A stretch of 34,464 nt of DNA, from NCBI GenBank assembly GCA_016203135.1, contig JACQNI010000046.1, positions 1 through 34,464 on the forward strand. Reading direction: 5' to 3'. A model generated the notes under the pieces. It ran no database searches. It was given only the letters and a program-made list of their open reading frames with translations, and had not been told where the DNA came from. The translations under genes and the position numbers were made by a program. The stretch comes from Candidatus Woesearchaeota archaeon (GTDB taxonomy: Archaea; Nanobdellota; Nanobdellia; SCGC-AAA011-G17; JACPNG01). Positions 13,600 to 31,871 of the stretch are shown one piece after another; position 1 is the stretch's first letter; every line of letters starts with the position of its first letter.

Positions 13600-13824
13600 A
13601 TGAAAACTAATATAGAATATCTGGAATCAAAGTTAAGACCAATCGAATTGAGTAAATTGGCTACCAAATTTTTAGAAGAAAATGGCTATAGTATATTTGG
13701 AAGACCAATTCAAGAGCATAAGCGATTATATTGCCAAAACAGGTTTGAAAACTTTATGGTAAGGGGAGCTTACAGTAAATCAGGAGAAAGTGGAAGATTA
13801 AGGAGTAAAAGGTCATACCAATGA
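13600..13824 (+). CDS. Hypothetical protein, 74 aa, first gene of the metK operon
   Basis: Not recognised. It has an N-terminal helical part (NIEYLESKLRPIELSKLATKFLEENGYSIF) and a basic, probably flexible C-terminus (SGESGRLRSKRSYQ). No signal peptide or membrane segment. The TGA overlaps the ATG of the next gene (ATGA), and AGGAG at 13801-13805 lies upstream of that ATG. Its place as the promoter-proximal gene suggests it belongs functionally to the cluster. Confidence 0.55.
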   Translation: MKTNIEYLESKLRPIELSKLATKFLEENGYSIFGRPIQEHKRLYCQNRFENFMVRGAYSKSGESGRLRSKRSYQ

Positions 13825-14120
13825 AAAAGAAATTAGTCTTTACATTGATTGGCCCAAAAGAATCAAAGAATGTGACTTTAGAAGAAATTACAGCAGAAGA
13901 AAAAGAGGGCAAGAAATACATTGGAACTGCTATCGGTAAAGATGTATCTCATTGCGCCTATCTTGCAGCAAAATATGAAAAAACTTTTTTGAAAGAAGGA
14001 AAATATTATTACATTAATACAGAAAAAGACAAGGATATAGAAGAATTAAGAAAAAAACAACCGAACTCTATCAAAGTAGAATTTTATGGAGAATTAAATG
14101 ATAAAAGGAGAATCAAATGA
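13821..14120 (+). CDS. Hypothetical protein, 99 aa, in the metK operon
   Basis: Not recognised. A small alpha/beta protein: a strand (KLVFTLIGPKE), an acidic helix (TLEEITAEEKEGK), then KYIGTAIGKDVSHCAYLAAKYEKTF and KYYYINTEKDKDIEELRKKQPNSIKVEFYGEL. It is linked by ATGA overlaps on both sides, so its translation is coupled both to the 74-aa protein and to MetK. Confidence 0.55.
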   Translation: MKKKLVFTLIGPKESKNVTLEEITAEEKEGKKYIGTAIGKDVSHCAYLAAKYEKTFLKEGKYYYINTEKDKDIEELRKKQPNSIKVEFYGELNDKRRIK

Positions 14121-15292
14121 TAAAAAAAATTAGAAGATATAAGACAGCAGAATCTGTGACAGAAGGACACCCAGATAAAGTATGTGATATAATCTCAGAT
14201 GCATTGGTTGATTTGTATATAAGTGTAGATCATGAAGCTTTAGTTTCTATAAAGGCTTTAGCAGCAAGAGATTTAGTTTGTTTAGGTGGTGAAGTTGGGG
14301 GTTACAAATGTTTAAAACTAGACATAGAAGAAACAATTAGAAAAGCAATAAAAGACATCGGATATGATCAAGATAATTTAGGTTTTAATTCAAATACTTT
14401 AAGTATCATAGATAAAATAGATAGACACGAAATTAATGATTTTAATAAATTGAGTTGGGGAAAAAACGACTTACTTGGTTCTAGAGATCAATGTATAGTA
14501 TTTGGATATGCATGTAATGAAACAGAAGAATTTATGCCTTTGCCAATAACACTGGCACATAAATTGGCTAAAGGCCTAACTGAATTAAGAAAGAACAAAA
14601 TTCTAGATTACTTAGGTCCTGATGGAAAAACTCAAGTAACAATAGAATATGAAAAAGGAATACCTAAAAGAATAGAAAATGTAGTAATCTCAACATTGCA
14701 TTCCATAGATATTCAATCACAAGTATTAGAAGATGATTTAAAAGAAAAACTAATTATCCCTACTTTAGGAGATTTTTTAGATAAAAATACTAATTTTTAC
14801 ATAAATCCAACTGGCAGATTTATTGTTGGTGGTCCTGCAATTGATACTGGTTTAACCGGGAGAAAATTAATTGTAGATAGTTACGGAGATGCAAGCAAAC
14901 ATGGGGGTGGAGCATTTTCTGGAAAAGACCCAACAAGTTCAGATAGGTGTGGAGCATATCTGGCAAGATACATTGCAAAAAATATTGTAGCATCTTGTCT
15001 TGCTAAAGAATGCGAAGTAGAATTATCTTATGCAATTGGAAGTTTTGTTCCCCTAAATTTAACAATAAACACTTATGGGACTGGTAAATTGGAAGATAGA
15101 TTTGTTGAGGAGATTGTAGAAGAAAGTTTTGATTTAACCATCTCAGGTTCAATGAAAAATCTTAGTTTAAGGAAACCAATATACAAACGAACAGCATCTT
15201 ATGGACATTTTGGTAAGGAGGAATTTCCATGGGAAGCAACAGATAAAGTTGATCTATTAAAAAGTAAAATAGGGGGTGGAGCCAGTGTGTAA
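14117..15292 (+). CDS. metK: S-adenosylmethionine synthetase, bacterial type
   Basis: Makes SAM from ATP and methionine. Bacterial-type MetK motifs are clear: TEGHPDKVCDIISDA (His18, Asp20, Lys21), FGYACNETEEFMPLPI, NPTGRFIVGGP, DTGLTGRKLIVDSYG, HGGGAFSGKDPT with DR(C)GAY, and YGHFGKEEFPWEATDK. Length 391 aa is normal. The loop before FGYA reads SRDQC rather than the usual G-DQG, so the gating loop is altered. Archaea normally carry a distinct MAT family, so this copy was probably acquired from bacteria. GGAG at 14107-14110 lies 6 nt before the ATG. The C-terminus overlaps the next ORF. Confidence 0.95.
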   Translation: MIKKIRRYKTAESVTEGHPDKVCDIISDALVDLYISVDHEALVSIKALAARDLVCLGGEVGGYKCLKLDIEETIRKAIKDIGYDQDNLGFNSNTLSIIDKIDRHEINDFNKLSWGKNDLLGSRDQCIVFGYACNETEEFMPLPITLAHKLAKGLTELRKNKILDYLGPDGKTQVTIEYEKGIPKRIENVVISTLHSIDIQSQVLEDDLKEKLIIPTLGDFLDKNTNFYINPTGRFIVGGPAIDTGLTGRKLIVDSYGDASKHGGGAFSGKDPTSSDRCGAYLARYIAKNIVASCLAKECEVELSYAIGSFVPLNLTINTYGTGKLEDRFVEEIVEESFDLTISGSMKNLSLRKPIYKRTASYGHFGKEEFPWEATDKVDLLKSKIGGGASV

Positions 15293-15686
15293 TGGTAGCG
15301 GTAGTGTGAGGGTAATAAATGTAACAAGAAAACAAAGCAATATTCATTTATATGATTTAAATAAATTGCCTGCCATCGTTTATGCAAAGTTAAATAAGAA
15401 TGAGTTTAAATTGTTTACAAAAGGAACCATAAAATATCTATTGTCCCATGATTCTCGTAGGGCTGCAAACAGTTTTAACTATTTGGTTAGCTTGACCTTA
15501 GGCATAGAGCAAGATGTAGAGAAAAAACTAAACAAACAACTTCATTCATTAAAGAGAGAATATCTAGACGATTTGATCAAATACAATACAAACGGAAATT
15601 CTTCTTTAAATAGACATGCAGATTATAGATCCAAAATTCAGAAATTATCAGAGAAGTTTGAGGAGGTATACGATCAGTATTTTTAG
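15285..15686 (+). CDS. Hypothetical protein, 133 aa, in the metK operon
   Basis: Not recognised. GTG 15285 is chosen because GGGGGTGG (15272-15279) lies 5 nt before it; GTG 15276 and GTG 15306 are alternatives. It overlaps the metK 3' end by 8 nt. The protein is helical and charged after about residue 20, with LYDLNKLPAIVYAKLNKNEFKLF, LSHDSRRAANSFNYLVSLTLG and a C-terminal coiled coil. No membrane segment. It follows metK with translational coupling. Confidence 0.5.
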   Translation: MCNGSGSVRVINVTRKQSNIHLYDLNKLPAIVYAKLNKNEFKLFTKGTIKYLLSHDSRRAANSFNYLVSLTLGIEQDVEKKLNKQLHSLKREYLDDLIKYNTNGNSSLNRHADYRSKIQKLSEKFEEVYDQYF

Positions 15687-15733
15687 TTTAACAAGTATGT
15701 TGAAGAAAATAAAAATATAGTGGGGGAATAAAT

Positions 15734-16594
15734 ATGATGCAAACGTTAGAAGTAATAGGAAATTTTGAAGGAACTTTAGTAAAGTTTTCTGAAGTAAGCG
15801 AGGAAAATAAGAAACAAGAGATTTTAAGTAAGATAGAACAGATAAATGGATTAAATCCAAATGTTTATGAAAGAGTAAGACTTAAAACATATCTAAAAAA
15901 GCGCGCAAGTATCTTGCAAACTCTTGCTGATGATTACCTGACAGCAGAGATTTCTAGCAGATTCCCATTAATCAATGATGGATTATTTGCTTTAAGAAGA
16001 AGTTTATATATAGAGAATACAAGAAATGGATATCAGATTCTGGAAGATATTACAGCATTAGAGGATGTTCCTGCAATTAGTAAAAAACATGAGAGTTTAA
16101 ACAATGTAGAGCGTATCGAAGTGCCTTTATTTGCATATACATCTCTTGACGACGAAAGAGAAGAACACAAGACTTTGCTTGGAAAGATAACAATCGATAG
16201 AAGAAAAATTCGTGATATGGACTATGAAAACACTTATGAAAAGAATTTATGGATAACAGCAAACTTACCTGGTGAAAATCTTGATGGAATGCTAAGAAAA
16301 GCTAGATATGAAGCATTAGGAGAGTATTTTAGTATCTTAGGAAAAGCTATGAAACTGCCAGTAGTTGGTGATATACTTTCTCAGGAAATTGACCTTATGC
16401 CAGATATAGGAGCAATCTGGATTCCAACAGCAGACTCTTTGGATTTAAGGGTAACAGAGCATTTAGTGCATAGGGAATATATCGATCCTGCTATGATTTT
16501 GAGTGCTAGGGACAAAAAATATTTGATAACTACATGGAATGTAAAAGACGAAGAACCATTCGAACATTATCTTAGAGAGTTTACATCGGAATAA
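15734..16594 (+). CDS. Hypothetical protein, 286 aa, in the metK operon
   Basis: Not recognised; the longest unknown of the cluster. A strong GGGGG (15722-15726) lies 7 nt before ATG 15734. The N-terminal third is helical (VSEENKKQEILSKIEQIN, RVRLKTYLKKRASILQTLADDYL), the middle has IEVPLFAYTSLDDEREEHKTLLGKITIDRRKIRD, and the C-terminal part has YFSILGKAMKLPVVGDILS and DIGAIWIPTADSLDLRVTEHLVHREYIDP. It is soluble and of mixed alpha/beta composition with no catalytic motif that I can name. It ends 3 bases before the next gene. Confidence 0.6.
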   Translation: MMQTLEVIGNFEGTLVKFSEVSEENKKQEILSKIEQINGLNPNVYERVRLKTYLKKRASILQTLADDYLTAEISSRFPLINDGLFALRRSLYIENTRNGYQILEDITALEDVPAISKKHESLNNVERIEVPLFAYTSLDDEREEHKTLLGKITIDRRKIRDMDYENTYEKNLWITANLPGENLDGMLRKARYEALGEYFSILGKAMKLPVVGDILSQEIDLMPDIGAIWIPTADSLDLRVTEHLVHREYIDPAMILSARDKKYLITTWNVKDEEPFEHYLREFTSE

Positions 16595-16597
16595 AAA

Positions 16598-16936
16598 ATG
16601 GAAGATAAAGAACACTTTACAAAAAAAGAATTGGAAGATTTGCTTAGAGAACAAAAGGAAGAGATAATATCAGAAATAGGAGATGAATTAGAAAAAGTAA
16701 GGCAATACGCATCATTCTCAGCAATGCTTGGACCTCTTGCAATGTTTTTTCCTAGATCCAATGTTGCAAAAGTAAGGTTTATTAGTAATAAAGAGAATGA
16801 AATAAAAGGTTTTGGTACTTTATGTAAAAGTGGTTATGCTATAGATTCTTATGGTAATGGTGTATATGGTCTTACTTCAGAAAAACAATTGAAATTATTG
16901 GATAAGTTAAAGATACCTTATAAATTAGTGGATTAA
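16598..16936 (+). CDS. Hypothetical protein, 112 aa, in the metK operon
   Basis: Not recognised. An acidic coiled-coil-like N-terminus (KKELEDLLREQKEEIISEIGDELEKVRQY), a short hydrophobic stretch (SFSAMLGPLAMFF), then a beta-rich C-terminus (VRFISNKENEIKGFGTLCKSGYAIDSYGNGVYGLTSEKQLKLLDKLKIPY). It could be membrane-associated through the hydrophobic stretch, but that stretch is short. The stop is followed after one base by the 28-aa ORF. Confidence 0.55.
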   Translation: MEDKEHFTKKELEDLLREQKEEIISEIGDELEKVRQYASFSAMLGPLAMFFPRSNVAKVRFISNKENEIKGFGTLCKSGYAIDSYGNGVYGLTSEKQLKLLDKLKIPYKLVD

Positions 16937-16937
16937 A

Positions 16938-17024
16938 ATGGGATTCAAAGAATATATTTTTATGGACAGACTAATTAGAAACTATATTGGACCAATTACA
17001 AATAAAATTGAAAAACTTGAATAA
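16938..17024 (+). CDS. Tiny ORF, 28 aa, last of the metK operon
   Basis: MGFKEYIFMDRLIRNYIGPI... ends in KIEKLE. It begins one base after the previous stop (TAA-A-ATG) and ends one base from the convergent ATPase gene. The spacing matches the tight packing of real genes here, but there is no independent evidence of translation. It could also be the remnant of a longer protein. Confidence 0.4.
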   Translation: MGFKEYIFMDRLIRNYIGPITNKIEKLE

Positions 17025-17025
17025 G

Positions 17026-17730
17026 TTACTTTAGTACAGCTTCAACATGCTCTTTGGTTACCTTCTCATAACCCCTATCAAAAGCATGTTTAAATACAAG
17101 TTCAGAATTTTTCAATAATCGTCTAGGATTTTCATCAGACTTAGAAAAAATTAATTTTATCGTCTCATCATCAATAATGTCTACATCTCCAATTCTTTTT
17201 CTTATAATACTTACTGAATCTTCAGGGTTTAATTTGTTAAGTTTTATCACATTGCCATCAACAAGCTTCTTCAAGCCGTCAGACATTTTTATGGAAAAAA
17301 AATCATGGCTGACTAAAACAATTGCCCTAAAATAATGATCATTATAATAATAAGCCAAATTCTCAGAGTCTTTTTCATTCATGTATTGAGATTCATCCAA
17401 AAGCAATATCATGTCTTTTGGCTTTATATTAAACATCCTTCCAAAGAATCCATACCTTCCCTTCAAAATTTCTTCTAAATCAATCTCATCTTCTTTCCTG
17501 TTGCAGCTATAATAAACAACCCGTTTTTTCCCTCCAAACTGCCGTATTATTTTTTTTAGAATAGTAGTTTTTCCCTTTCCATAAGCCCCTTCTATAAATA
17601 AAACCTCTCCGTTGTTTATTTTATCCATTATATCTTGCACATTATACCCAAACAGCTCATCGCTAAAAGCAGCAGGCTTTATGCTAAAAGGATTATTGTA
17701 AAAACCCAATTTTTTAAACCAAATTTCCAT
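17026..17730 (-). CDS. AAA ATPase, ExeA/Cdc6-like, first paralogue
   Basis: P-loop ATPase of 234 aa starting with WFKKLGFYNNPFSIKP, a lead-in also seen in ExeA-like ATPases. Walker A is GAYGKGKT (48-55) and Walker B is ILLLDESQ (Asp112, Glu113); a sensor-like LVSHD and a C-terminal winged-helix-like part (ENPRRLLKNSELVFKHAFDRG, TKEHVEAVLK) follow. It is a paralogue of the gene immediately upstream (GRYGFFGRMFNIKPKDMILLLDE versus DKYGFWGRIFNKMPKDMILLMDE). The stop of that gene is one base before this ATG, so the two are coupled and could form a heteromer. Function unknown. Confidence 0.8.
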   Translation of the reverse strand: MEIWFKKLGFYNNPFSIKPAAFSDELFGYNVQDIMDKINNGEVLFIEGAYGKGKTTILKKIIRQFGGKKRVVYYSCNRKEDEIDLEEILKGRYGFFGRMFNIKPKDMILLLDESQYMNEKDSENLAYYYNDHYFRAIVLVSHDFFSIKMSDGLKKLVDGNVIKLNKLNPEDSVSIIRKRIGDVDIIDDETIKLIFSKSDENPRRLLKNSELVFKHAFDRGYEKVTKEHVEAVLK

Positions 17731-17731
17731 T

Positions 17732-18601
17732 TTAATAGTAATTCTCAGCTACATCATCGTAGATTATTTTTATTTGCCCCTTTGGCTTTTCTTTTTCTTC
17801 TTTTTTTTCCAGTTTTTCTTTTTTTTTAATTTGTTTTTTTCCTTTAACCCTTTCTTCTTTCTTTTCAACGTCTAATTTCTCTTGCTTTTCTTCATGAACA
17901 ATCTTTTCTTTTTTCCCAATAACCCCTTCTATTATATCCTTATCTGCCTTTTCAAGTTTTCTTTCAACAACGATTTCTGCAATTTTCTCGCAATTTTCTA
18001 AAAACAGCTTTACATTCTTGTCAGAATGCTTAAATATCATTTTTATGTCTTCATTAGAAAATAATTCCAAATTTCCAAGCCTTGATTTTATTATTCTTAC
18101 AGCCTCATCATCCTTTAGCTCTTTTAATGTTATTATCTTTGCTACTCTCTCTTTTAAGCTTGGAGAAAAATTAGGGTTCTTTCTGTCTTTTGTTGTGAAA
18201 ATAATTGCCTTTATGTAGTTTTGATCATAAAAATATTTTATTCTTTCTAGGTTTTTCTCACTTAACTCTTCAACCTCATCCATAAGCAATATCATATCTT
18301 TAGGCATTTTATTAAAAATCCTTCCCCAGAAACCATATTTATCCATTAAAACATTTTCAATATTTGGGTTTTCTATTTTATTTCCATTGATATAAACAAC
18401 CCTTCCTTGCCCCCTGAATCTGTTAATAACTACATTCAACAATGATGTTTTTCCCCTTCCATCTTCACCTTCAATAACCACTATGTTTCCTGCATTTATG
18501 TTATACAGCAAATCCTCTATTATGTCATTATAGCTTATTAGCTCAGTACTAGAACTATCCTTAAATGGATTTTCTATAAAATTTAAGTCCTCAAACCACA
18601 T
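17732..18601 (-). CDS. AAA ATPase, ExeA/Cdc6-like, second paralogue with Lys/Glu-rich tail
   Basis: 289 aa. It begins MWFEDLNFIENPFKD, with Walker A GEDGRGKT (45-52) and Walker B LLMDE (Asp108, Glu109). From about residue 220 a long Lys/Glu-rich, low-complexity tail follows (KEERVKGKKQIKKKEKLEKK), ending in the distinct IKIIYDDVAENYY. The tail is absent from the first paralogue, and its conserved-looking end suggests a short peptide used for partner binding. It overlaps the upstream TM/TPR-like gene by 11 nt. Confidence 0.8.
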   Translation of the reverse strand: MWFEDLNFIENPFKDSSSTELISYNDIIEDLLYNINAGNIVVIEGEDGRGKTSLLNVVINRFRGQGRVVYINGNKIENPNIENVLMDKYGFWGRIFNKMPKDMILLMDEVEELSEKNLERIKYFYDQNYIKAIIFTTKDRKNPNFSPSLKERVAKIITLKELKDDEAVRIIKSRLGNLELFSNEDIKMIFKHSDKNVKLFLENCEKIAEIVVERKLEKADKDIIEGVIGKKEKIVHEEKQEKLDVEKKEERVKGKKQIKKKEKLEKKEEKEKPKGQIKIIYDDVAENYY

Positions 18602-31181: not shown

Positions 31182-31871
31182 CTAAATATAAGATTCTACA
31201 AGGCTTTTTTTCTTCAACTCAAGTTCTACATATCCGCAGTAGTTTGATTCAATATTTTTTTTCATGTTTATTGCCTGAAGTTCTTCTTTAAATAAAGGAG
31301 CATCTAAAACCAAAGAGTCCGCAGATCCGCCCTCAAATCCTACATGAAACCCATATTTTTCTGAATCCTTAACTAATTGATTGAAATTTTCTTTATTAAC
31401 AACCTTTCCAAGCCAGTTTATTAAGCCATCTGCAGCAACCTGTGTTATCATAATTTTATATCCAGAATCTATCATACTTCTAAACAACTCCTCGTGGTCT
31501 TCCCCAGCATGAGCTGCAAACACTTCAATCTTTAAATTTCTCAAAGCCTTTTGTATTGATTCTATTTGAGTAACTTGCAGTCCAACACCCCCAAGAACAA
31601 CAGCATCAACAGGATTCTTCTCAACAACTTTTCTAACAATATCTGCTTCTAGTCTTGGATCAGCAACATCGCATTTAACATATATATGGTTTAATCCCAA
31701 GACTTCAGCCTGTTCTTTTGTGTTTTCAACAGTAGCATAATGAAACAAGTAGCAATCAGTCCTTGTTGGTTTTACTGATAATAAATATTTAATCTTCCAG
31801 TTTCTTTTCAAGCAGTATTCAACAGCAAAGTTGCTATCTTTTCCCCCTGAATATAAAACAGCTACGTCCAT
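31182..31871 (-). CDS. Diphthine-ammonia ligase family protein (Dph6-like)
   Basis: ATP-dependent amidation that completes diphthamide on elongation factor 2. PP-loop SGGKDS at 8-13 and the family order LGLNHIYVKCD ... VVLGGVGLQVTQIESIQKALRNLKIEVFAAHAGEDHEELFRSMIDSGYKIMITQVAADGL. The substrate-side motif usually read as E-G-G-E-Y/F-E-T is GFEGGSADSLVLDAPLF here, so the acidic residues are partly replaced. Length 229 aa is normal. No other diphthamide gene is in the window. Leaderless start predicted from its TATA box. Confidence 0.85.
   Translation of the reverse strand: MDVAVLYSGGKDSNFAVEYCLKRNWKIKYLLSVKPTRTDCYLFHYATVENTKEQAEVLGLNHIYVKCDVADPRLEADIVRKVVEKNPVDAVVLGGVGLQVTQIESIQKALRNLKIEVFAAHAGEDHEELFRSMIDSGYKIMITQVAADGLINWLGKVVNKENFNQLVKDSEKYGFHVGFEGGSADSLVLDAPLFKEELQAINMKKNIESNYCGYVELELKKKSLVESYI

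Follow-up and report, generated by a model that had tools for sequence, protein, structure and literature searches.

The window analyzed here is a 34,464-nucleotide stretch of DNA that makes up the first of the 92 contigs in the genome of an archaeon from the Woesearchaeota (G000; 912 kb, 93% complete), and our subject is an operon in it built around a homologue of MetK, the bacterial-type methionine adenosyltransferase (MAT; S-adenosylmethionine, or SAM, synthetase). Seven open reading frames (ORFs) lie on the same strand at 13600-17024, divergent from an Lrp-type regulator gene (Table 1). A first-pass annotation, made from the letters of the DNA, had described them at these coordinates as a seven-gene operon in which metK is accompanied by six unassignable partners and no methyltransferase. 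The junctions are tight, with ATGA overlaps between the 74-aa ORF (p74) and p99 and between p99 and MAT, a further overlap between MAT and p133, and a gap of 3 nt between p286 and p112. Codon-usage scores back p99, MAT, p286 and p112, and p133 moderately (an alternative GTG start at 15276 would give a protein of 136 aa). They do not back the 74-aa and 28-aa ORFs, and in the former the coding signal of its own frame fades past approximately 90 nt. The operon thus stands as regards its frames, coordinates and junctions, less the codon-usage support for these two members. A Pfam scan showed no methyltransferase in the cluster, as had been noted, and the six proteins other than MetK gave no convincing match to Pfam, NCBIfam, PHROG or PADLOC models (PHROG and PADLOC for the five other than the 28-aa ORF), which agrees with their description as unassignable. 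An anti-phage defence system was dropped as a candidate, the PADLOC models matching none of p74, p99, p133, p286 and p112.

Table 1. Features of the MAT operon and its upstream region (window coordinates).
Feature	Position	Strand	Remarks
Double Lrp/AsnC-type regulator, 324 aa	12531..13505	-	Divergent from the operon; PF13404, PF13412 and PF01037 above cut-off, two stretches each
Conserved element ATATAAATATNNCTAATTTACAAAA	13529..13553	+	Putative Lrp operator and TATA box of the divergent promoter
p74, 74-aa ORF	13600..13824	+	Doubtful or decayed gene; codon score 0.18 in frame versus 0.32 in another frame
p99, 99 aa	13821..14120	+	Rare family; conserved His-Cys pair and C-terminal EFY motif (alignment)
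MAT/MetK homologue, 391 aa	14117..15292	+	ATP/triphosphate half-site intact, methionine/gate-loop half-site altered (TIGR01034 and residue census)
p133, 133 aa	15285..15686	+	GTG start; orphan; its start overlaps the end of MAT; codon usage moderately supportive
p286, 286 aa	15734..16594	+	Three other Woesearchaeota and a phage-like contig hold members of its family
p112, 112 aa	16598..16936	+	Orphan; good coding signal
28-aa ORF	16938..17024	+	Unsupported as a gene (codon-usage scores)

The MetK homologue scores 456 bits against TIGR01034 (cut-off 309) and contains all three S-AdoMet_synt domains (PF00438, PF02772 and PF02773), in line with the bacterial type proposed for it, but this type is ordinary in the phylum because it is present in 177 of 371 genomes. 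Within the order, a bacterial-type MAT was found in 19/60 genomes and the archaeal type (PF01941) in 4/60, so that many relatives have neither. The window MAT is the sole bacterial-type match in G000. A second, archaeal-type MAT, which the first reading had proposed to look for elsewhere in the genome, was not found in G000 by a PF01941 search that recovers this family in control archaea. G000 also encodes a SAM-consuming radical-SAM methylthiotransferase (TIGR01578, 375 bits). In a tree, the window MAT lies on a long branch (1.25) within the MATs of the phylum. Acquisition of the variant from a phage was rejected: the tree pairs it with the MAT of an Anaerosphaera phage, but the program flags long-branch attraction, and the phage enzyme retains the canonical residues. 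In-frame stops are present within the MAT matches of some relatives (G091:C19, G243:C15, G168:C1, G356:C1 and G336:C31), reflecting decay, errors or recoding.

We compared the residues of the window MAT with those of 109 distinct MATs, 44 cellular and 65 from viral contigs or phages, using the numbering of full-length E. coli MetK with Met1 counted. Four positions invariant in 109/109 of the other proteins are changed here (Q99H, I103D, G121C and K270S). Position 43, the K+ ligand (Glu42 of the E. coli enzyme when Met1 is not counted), is E in 104 proteins, D in one and K in the window MAT. H15, D17, E56, D119, Q120, K166, D239, R245, K246, K266 and D272 are kept, and these include the catalytic His and the Mg, ATP and triphosphate residues (H15, D17, K166, R245, K246, K266 and D272) as well as both methionine-amine ligands (E56 and D239). 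The gate loop reads DRHEINDFNKLSW, in which the motif QSPDI-x2-GV is lost together with Ile103, and GAGDQG is replaced by GSRDQC. Across the changed segments, the window MAT aligns gap-free to a profile built from the other MATs, so the changes are no alignment artefact. In the E. coli MAT (Met1 not counted), Gln98 and Lys269 (Q99 and K270 here) bind the methionine carboxylate, Ile102 contacts the methionine side chain, and Glu55 and Asp238 bind the amine (PMC3853416). The 2 carboxylate ligands, Q and K in every other MAT compared, are thus H and S in the window MAT. On its sequence we assign the protein to the MAT family but, because these methionine ligands were examined and found replaced, we stop short of calling it a functional methionine adenosyltransferase.

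The changes are unevenly distributed. Broken in the window MAT are 19 of the 101 near-invariant columns, 15/21 in the methionine/K+/gate-loop segments versus 4/80 elsewhere (Fisher 5e-10 for all segments and 7e-6 for gate loop 95-121 alone, the latter being the safer figure because the segments were partly picked after the changes were seen). In phage MATs with 11 to 13 broken columns, 0 to 1 of them fall in these segments, and from E. coli to the phage-borne copies the methionine gate is invariant in the other MATs compared. Judged by this distribution, the methionine half-site of the window MAT is rebuilt, as opposed to randomly eroded, and MetK itself is the anomaly of the locus, something the first-pass annotation was not in a position to see. 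A literature search of partial coverage found no MAT homologue with these residue changes. With its ATP half intact and its methionine half rebuilt, the enzyme would either recognize methionine in an independently evolved way or lead to a different sulfonium compound, and the variant may be a useful start for MAT engineering. Alternatively, the protein could be a pseudoenzyme or tripolyphosphatase-like remnant that binds ATP, perhaps hydrolyzing triphosphate or acting in regulation, and forms no sulfonium product, SAM being imported. The destroyed substrate half-site, the long branch and the lack of either MAT type in most relatives of the order are what such a remnant would leave, but the 76 of 80 near-invariant columns that are intact outside the segments, the strong codon-usage signal, and the maintenance of an open frame, a promoter and translational coupling make it improbable in our view.

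Upstream of the operon, the single TATA box originally proposed proved to be an incomplete description, since the region is a divergent promoter common to the operon and the Lrp gene and contains a conserved 25-bp element. The Lrp protein comprises two helix-turn-helix (HTH) and two ligand-binding halves in one chain. Among 98 other genomes, orthologues (65-67% identical; next best match 35%) were found only in G064 and G089, in each case just upstream of a p99 operon. G000, G064 and G089 each contain the element ATATAAATATNNCTAATTTACAAAA at a single zero-mismatch site, always upstream of the p99 operon, and G000 has no second site at ≤3 mismatches; because these sites served to define the element, finding it there is no evidence in itself, and the information lies in its conservation across families and its uniqueness. 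In G089, an inserted gene pair sits between the Lrp gene and the element, the latter remaining next to the p99 operon. The Lrp orthologue, the element and p99 hence co-occur in three genomes with varying cargo and form a module, and the single perfect site per genome suggests that the regulator is dedicated to it. Toxin-antitoxin-like genes flank or invade this module (in G064 a MazF-like gene, PF02452, and in G089 genes that are antitoxin-like or short; L050 5317-5879, L051 7279-7919 and 9411-9988).

Homologues of p99 were detected in 4 of the 103 genomes of the order, and a search of 84,980 species genomes with one peptide pattern, of limited sensitivity, returned only the same three besides p99 itself. 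The AF2 model of p99 is confident and gave no match at E ≤ 0.001 in a fold search against PDB and viral structures. Assignment as a SAM decarboxylase or as another named family was dropped, Pfam matching none above noise. In G064, the p99 homologue follows a SET-domain gene, MtnB (TIGR03328, 203 bits) and ARD (PF03079, 109 bits), the latter 2 being enzymes of methionine salvage. The G056 homologue is divergently oriented to the gene of an HTH-CBS protein, a family whose other matches in the DNA searched lie solely in the MAT loci of about a dozen genomes of the phylum, and which is a candidate SAM-sensing regulator of metK. HTH-CBS proteins were seen within approximately 3 kb of metK in L052, L053, L054, L062, L097, L102, L106, L109, L110, L113, L117 and L119. 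In G089, the homologue is preceded by two unrecognised genes. p99 thus represents a new family with recurrent ties to SAM/methionine genes, and it offers a handle on SAM management in genome-reduced DPANN archaea, many of which are without any MAT.

The G064 neighbourhood also bears on a possible change of substrate, in which MAT would adenosylate an amine-bearing thioether without a carboxylate, or a larger methionine derivative, to a non-SAM sulfonium that p99 and the proteins encoded downstream would use; 3-methylthiopropylamine, for example, would give decarboxylated SAM directly. Such a substrate would suit an enzyme that keeps the amine ligands E56 and D239 and has lost Q99 and K270, which bind the carboxylate, as well as I103, which contacts the side chain. 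It would also suit a cluster without a SAM-dependent methyltransferase and a p99 that in G064 adjoins methylthioadenosine-salvage enzymes, which serve the by-product route of decarboxylated SAM. However, no spermidine synthase or other consumer turned up, no search aimed at one having been made, the genome needs SAM and no other MAT was found in G000, and archaeal MATs show that the carboxylate can be bound by a different set of residues (PMC3853416). We therefore consider a changed substrate unlikely, and give equally little credence to the fuller proposal that a MAT-family enzyme has been repurposed for non-methionine adenosylation, producing a new sulfonium metabolite, in a dedicated Lrp-regulated operon with p99.

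For the downstream genes p133 and p112, the 98 other genomes and the viral contigs yielded no convincing relative. In G047, G082 and G030, a relative of p286 is encoded divergently to a 280-aa protein, with no metK in the vicinity; a further one is found on a 124-kb phage-like contig, which carries an RNA ligase as well. The AF2 model of p286 is weak (pLDDT 67), and a fold search against PDB gave nothing at E ≤ 0.001. Pfam gives no match for the 280-aa partner (two of the three were scanned), and a requirement of p286 for it was dropped because the partner was not found in G000. The divergent pairs lie at L047:8886-10628, L048:2544-4239 and L081:410-2187, and the conserved partner has a regulator-like look, with a helix-turn-helix start by eye. 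Near the ordinary metK of relatives, homologues of p99, p133, p286 and p112 were found at 0/15 loci. Co-occurrence of the partners with metK in other genomes was thus not supported, and because of this result, the occurrence of p286 without metK elsewhere and the orphan status of p133 and p112, we treat these three proteins as probably recent passengers. What remains of the proposal of an unusual system is an unusual locus with a p99 tied to SAM/methionine genes, and not a whole gene set that belongs with metK. The same data could reflect a chance assembly, that is, a fast-evolving functional metK beside unrelated co-directional orphan and mobile-element genes that form no system, which the toxin-antitoxin-like genes next to the module in G064 and G089 and the p286 relative on a phage-like contig would also fit. 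We regard this as distinctly unlikely, since it leaves unexplained the joint presence of the Lrp orthologue, the 25-bp element and p99 in three genomes, the p99 neighbours in G064 and G056, and the concentration of the MAT changes in one half-site.

The reading we favour, although we would put it at somewhat below an even chance, is that of a locally regulated SAM/methionine-cycle locus around a MAT that grips its second substrate, most likely still methionine, in a different way. The presence in G000 of a sole bacterial-type MAT and no PF01941, yet of a SAM-using methylthiotransferase, was counted in favour of an enzyme that makes SAM. The double-domain Lrp would bind the 25-bp element between its own gene and the operon and switch both, the cue being an amino acid or a metabolite related to one, most likely methionine or a product of methionine. 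p99, a predicted small accessory protein of the SAM cycle, and MAT would be translated in a coupled fashion. MAT would bind ATP and Mg normally, hold the amino group of its substrate in the classical manner and close the changed gate loop over it in the absence of the usual carboxylate ligands, Lys43 taking the place of K+. The sulfur of the substrate, for which that of L-methionine is the likeliest nucleophile, would then attack C5' of ATP, and MAT would displace and hydrolyze the triphosphate. The methionine carboxylate may be gripped by His/Asn of the new loop, much as archaeal MATs hold it through a His and an Asn of their own (T. kodakarensis MAT structure, PMC3853416). Several points weigh against this scheme. 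An ordinary MAT that lost both carboxylate ligands should be badly impaired, and the many relatives without any MAT make SAM import possible, in which case SAM would not have to come from this enzyme. Furthermore, the link between p99 and SAM comes from four genomes with three different partners, the G089 cargo being unrecognised; the comparison segments were partly chosen in hindsight, as stated above; and the searches gave no close relative of the MAT variant from which constraint on a clade could be gauged. Next to L-methionine as substrate, a carboxylate-free thioether is the main alternative and a pseudoenzyme the other.

Elsewhere in the window, two tandem AAA ATPases (17026-18601, minus strand) are convergent with the operon; they are mutually related (approximately 158 bits) and give weak AAA_14 and PADLOC mad8 matches. 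In a bacterial-type leucyl-tRNA synthetase gene (leuS, 31-2682), the first part of the editing domain is followed by an insertion, an RBBP9-like serine hydrolase domain (PF06821), and the codon at 1804-1806, where the first Gly of YIGG-x-EHA would stand, is an in-frame TGA. Because TGA acts as a stop elsewhere in the window, this codon is probably a mutation or assembly error. Reassignment of UGA was rejected, as TGA terminates other window genes such as gatA and a 126-kb scan was patternless; 6 of the 9 TGA-ended window genes other than leuS have another stop ≤3 codons on, possibly by chance. A diphthine-ammonia-ligase-like protein (TIGR03679, 155 bits, under the cut-off of 197) is encoded at 31182-31871 on the minus strand.

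Compared with bacterial-type MetK (TIGR01034, EC 2.5.1.6), the window MAT has the same three domains, 41-51% identity to its relatives, the same catalytic His, Mg, ATP and triphosphate residues and the same amine ligands, but differs by the lost QSPDI-x2-GV motif, GSRDQC, Q99H, I103D, K270S and E43K. The archaeal MAT (PF01941) is a different sequence family in which the carboxylate is also held without Gln/Lys, by His/Asn, and a similar solution is conceivable here. The methionine salvage genes mtnB and mtnD (ARD) are in the operon of the G064 p99 homologue and not in the window cluster. Finally, the regulator resembles archaeal Lrp/AsnC regulators of amino-acid genes (LysM, LrpA) in its HTH and ligand-binding halves, its divergent position and the common intergenic element, whereas here two Lrp units are fused in one chain.

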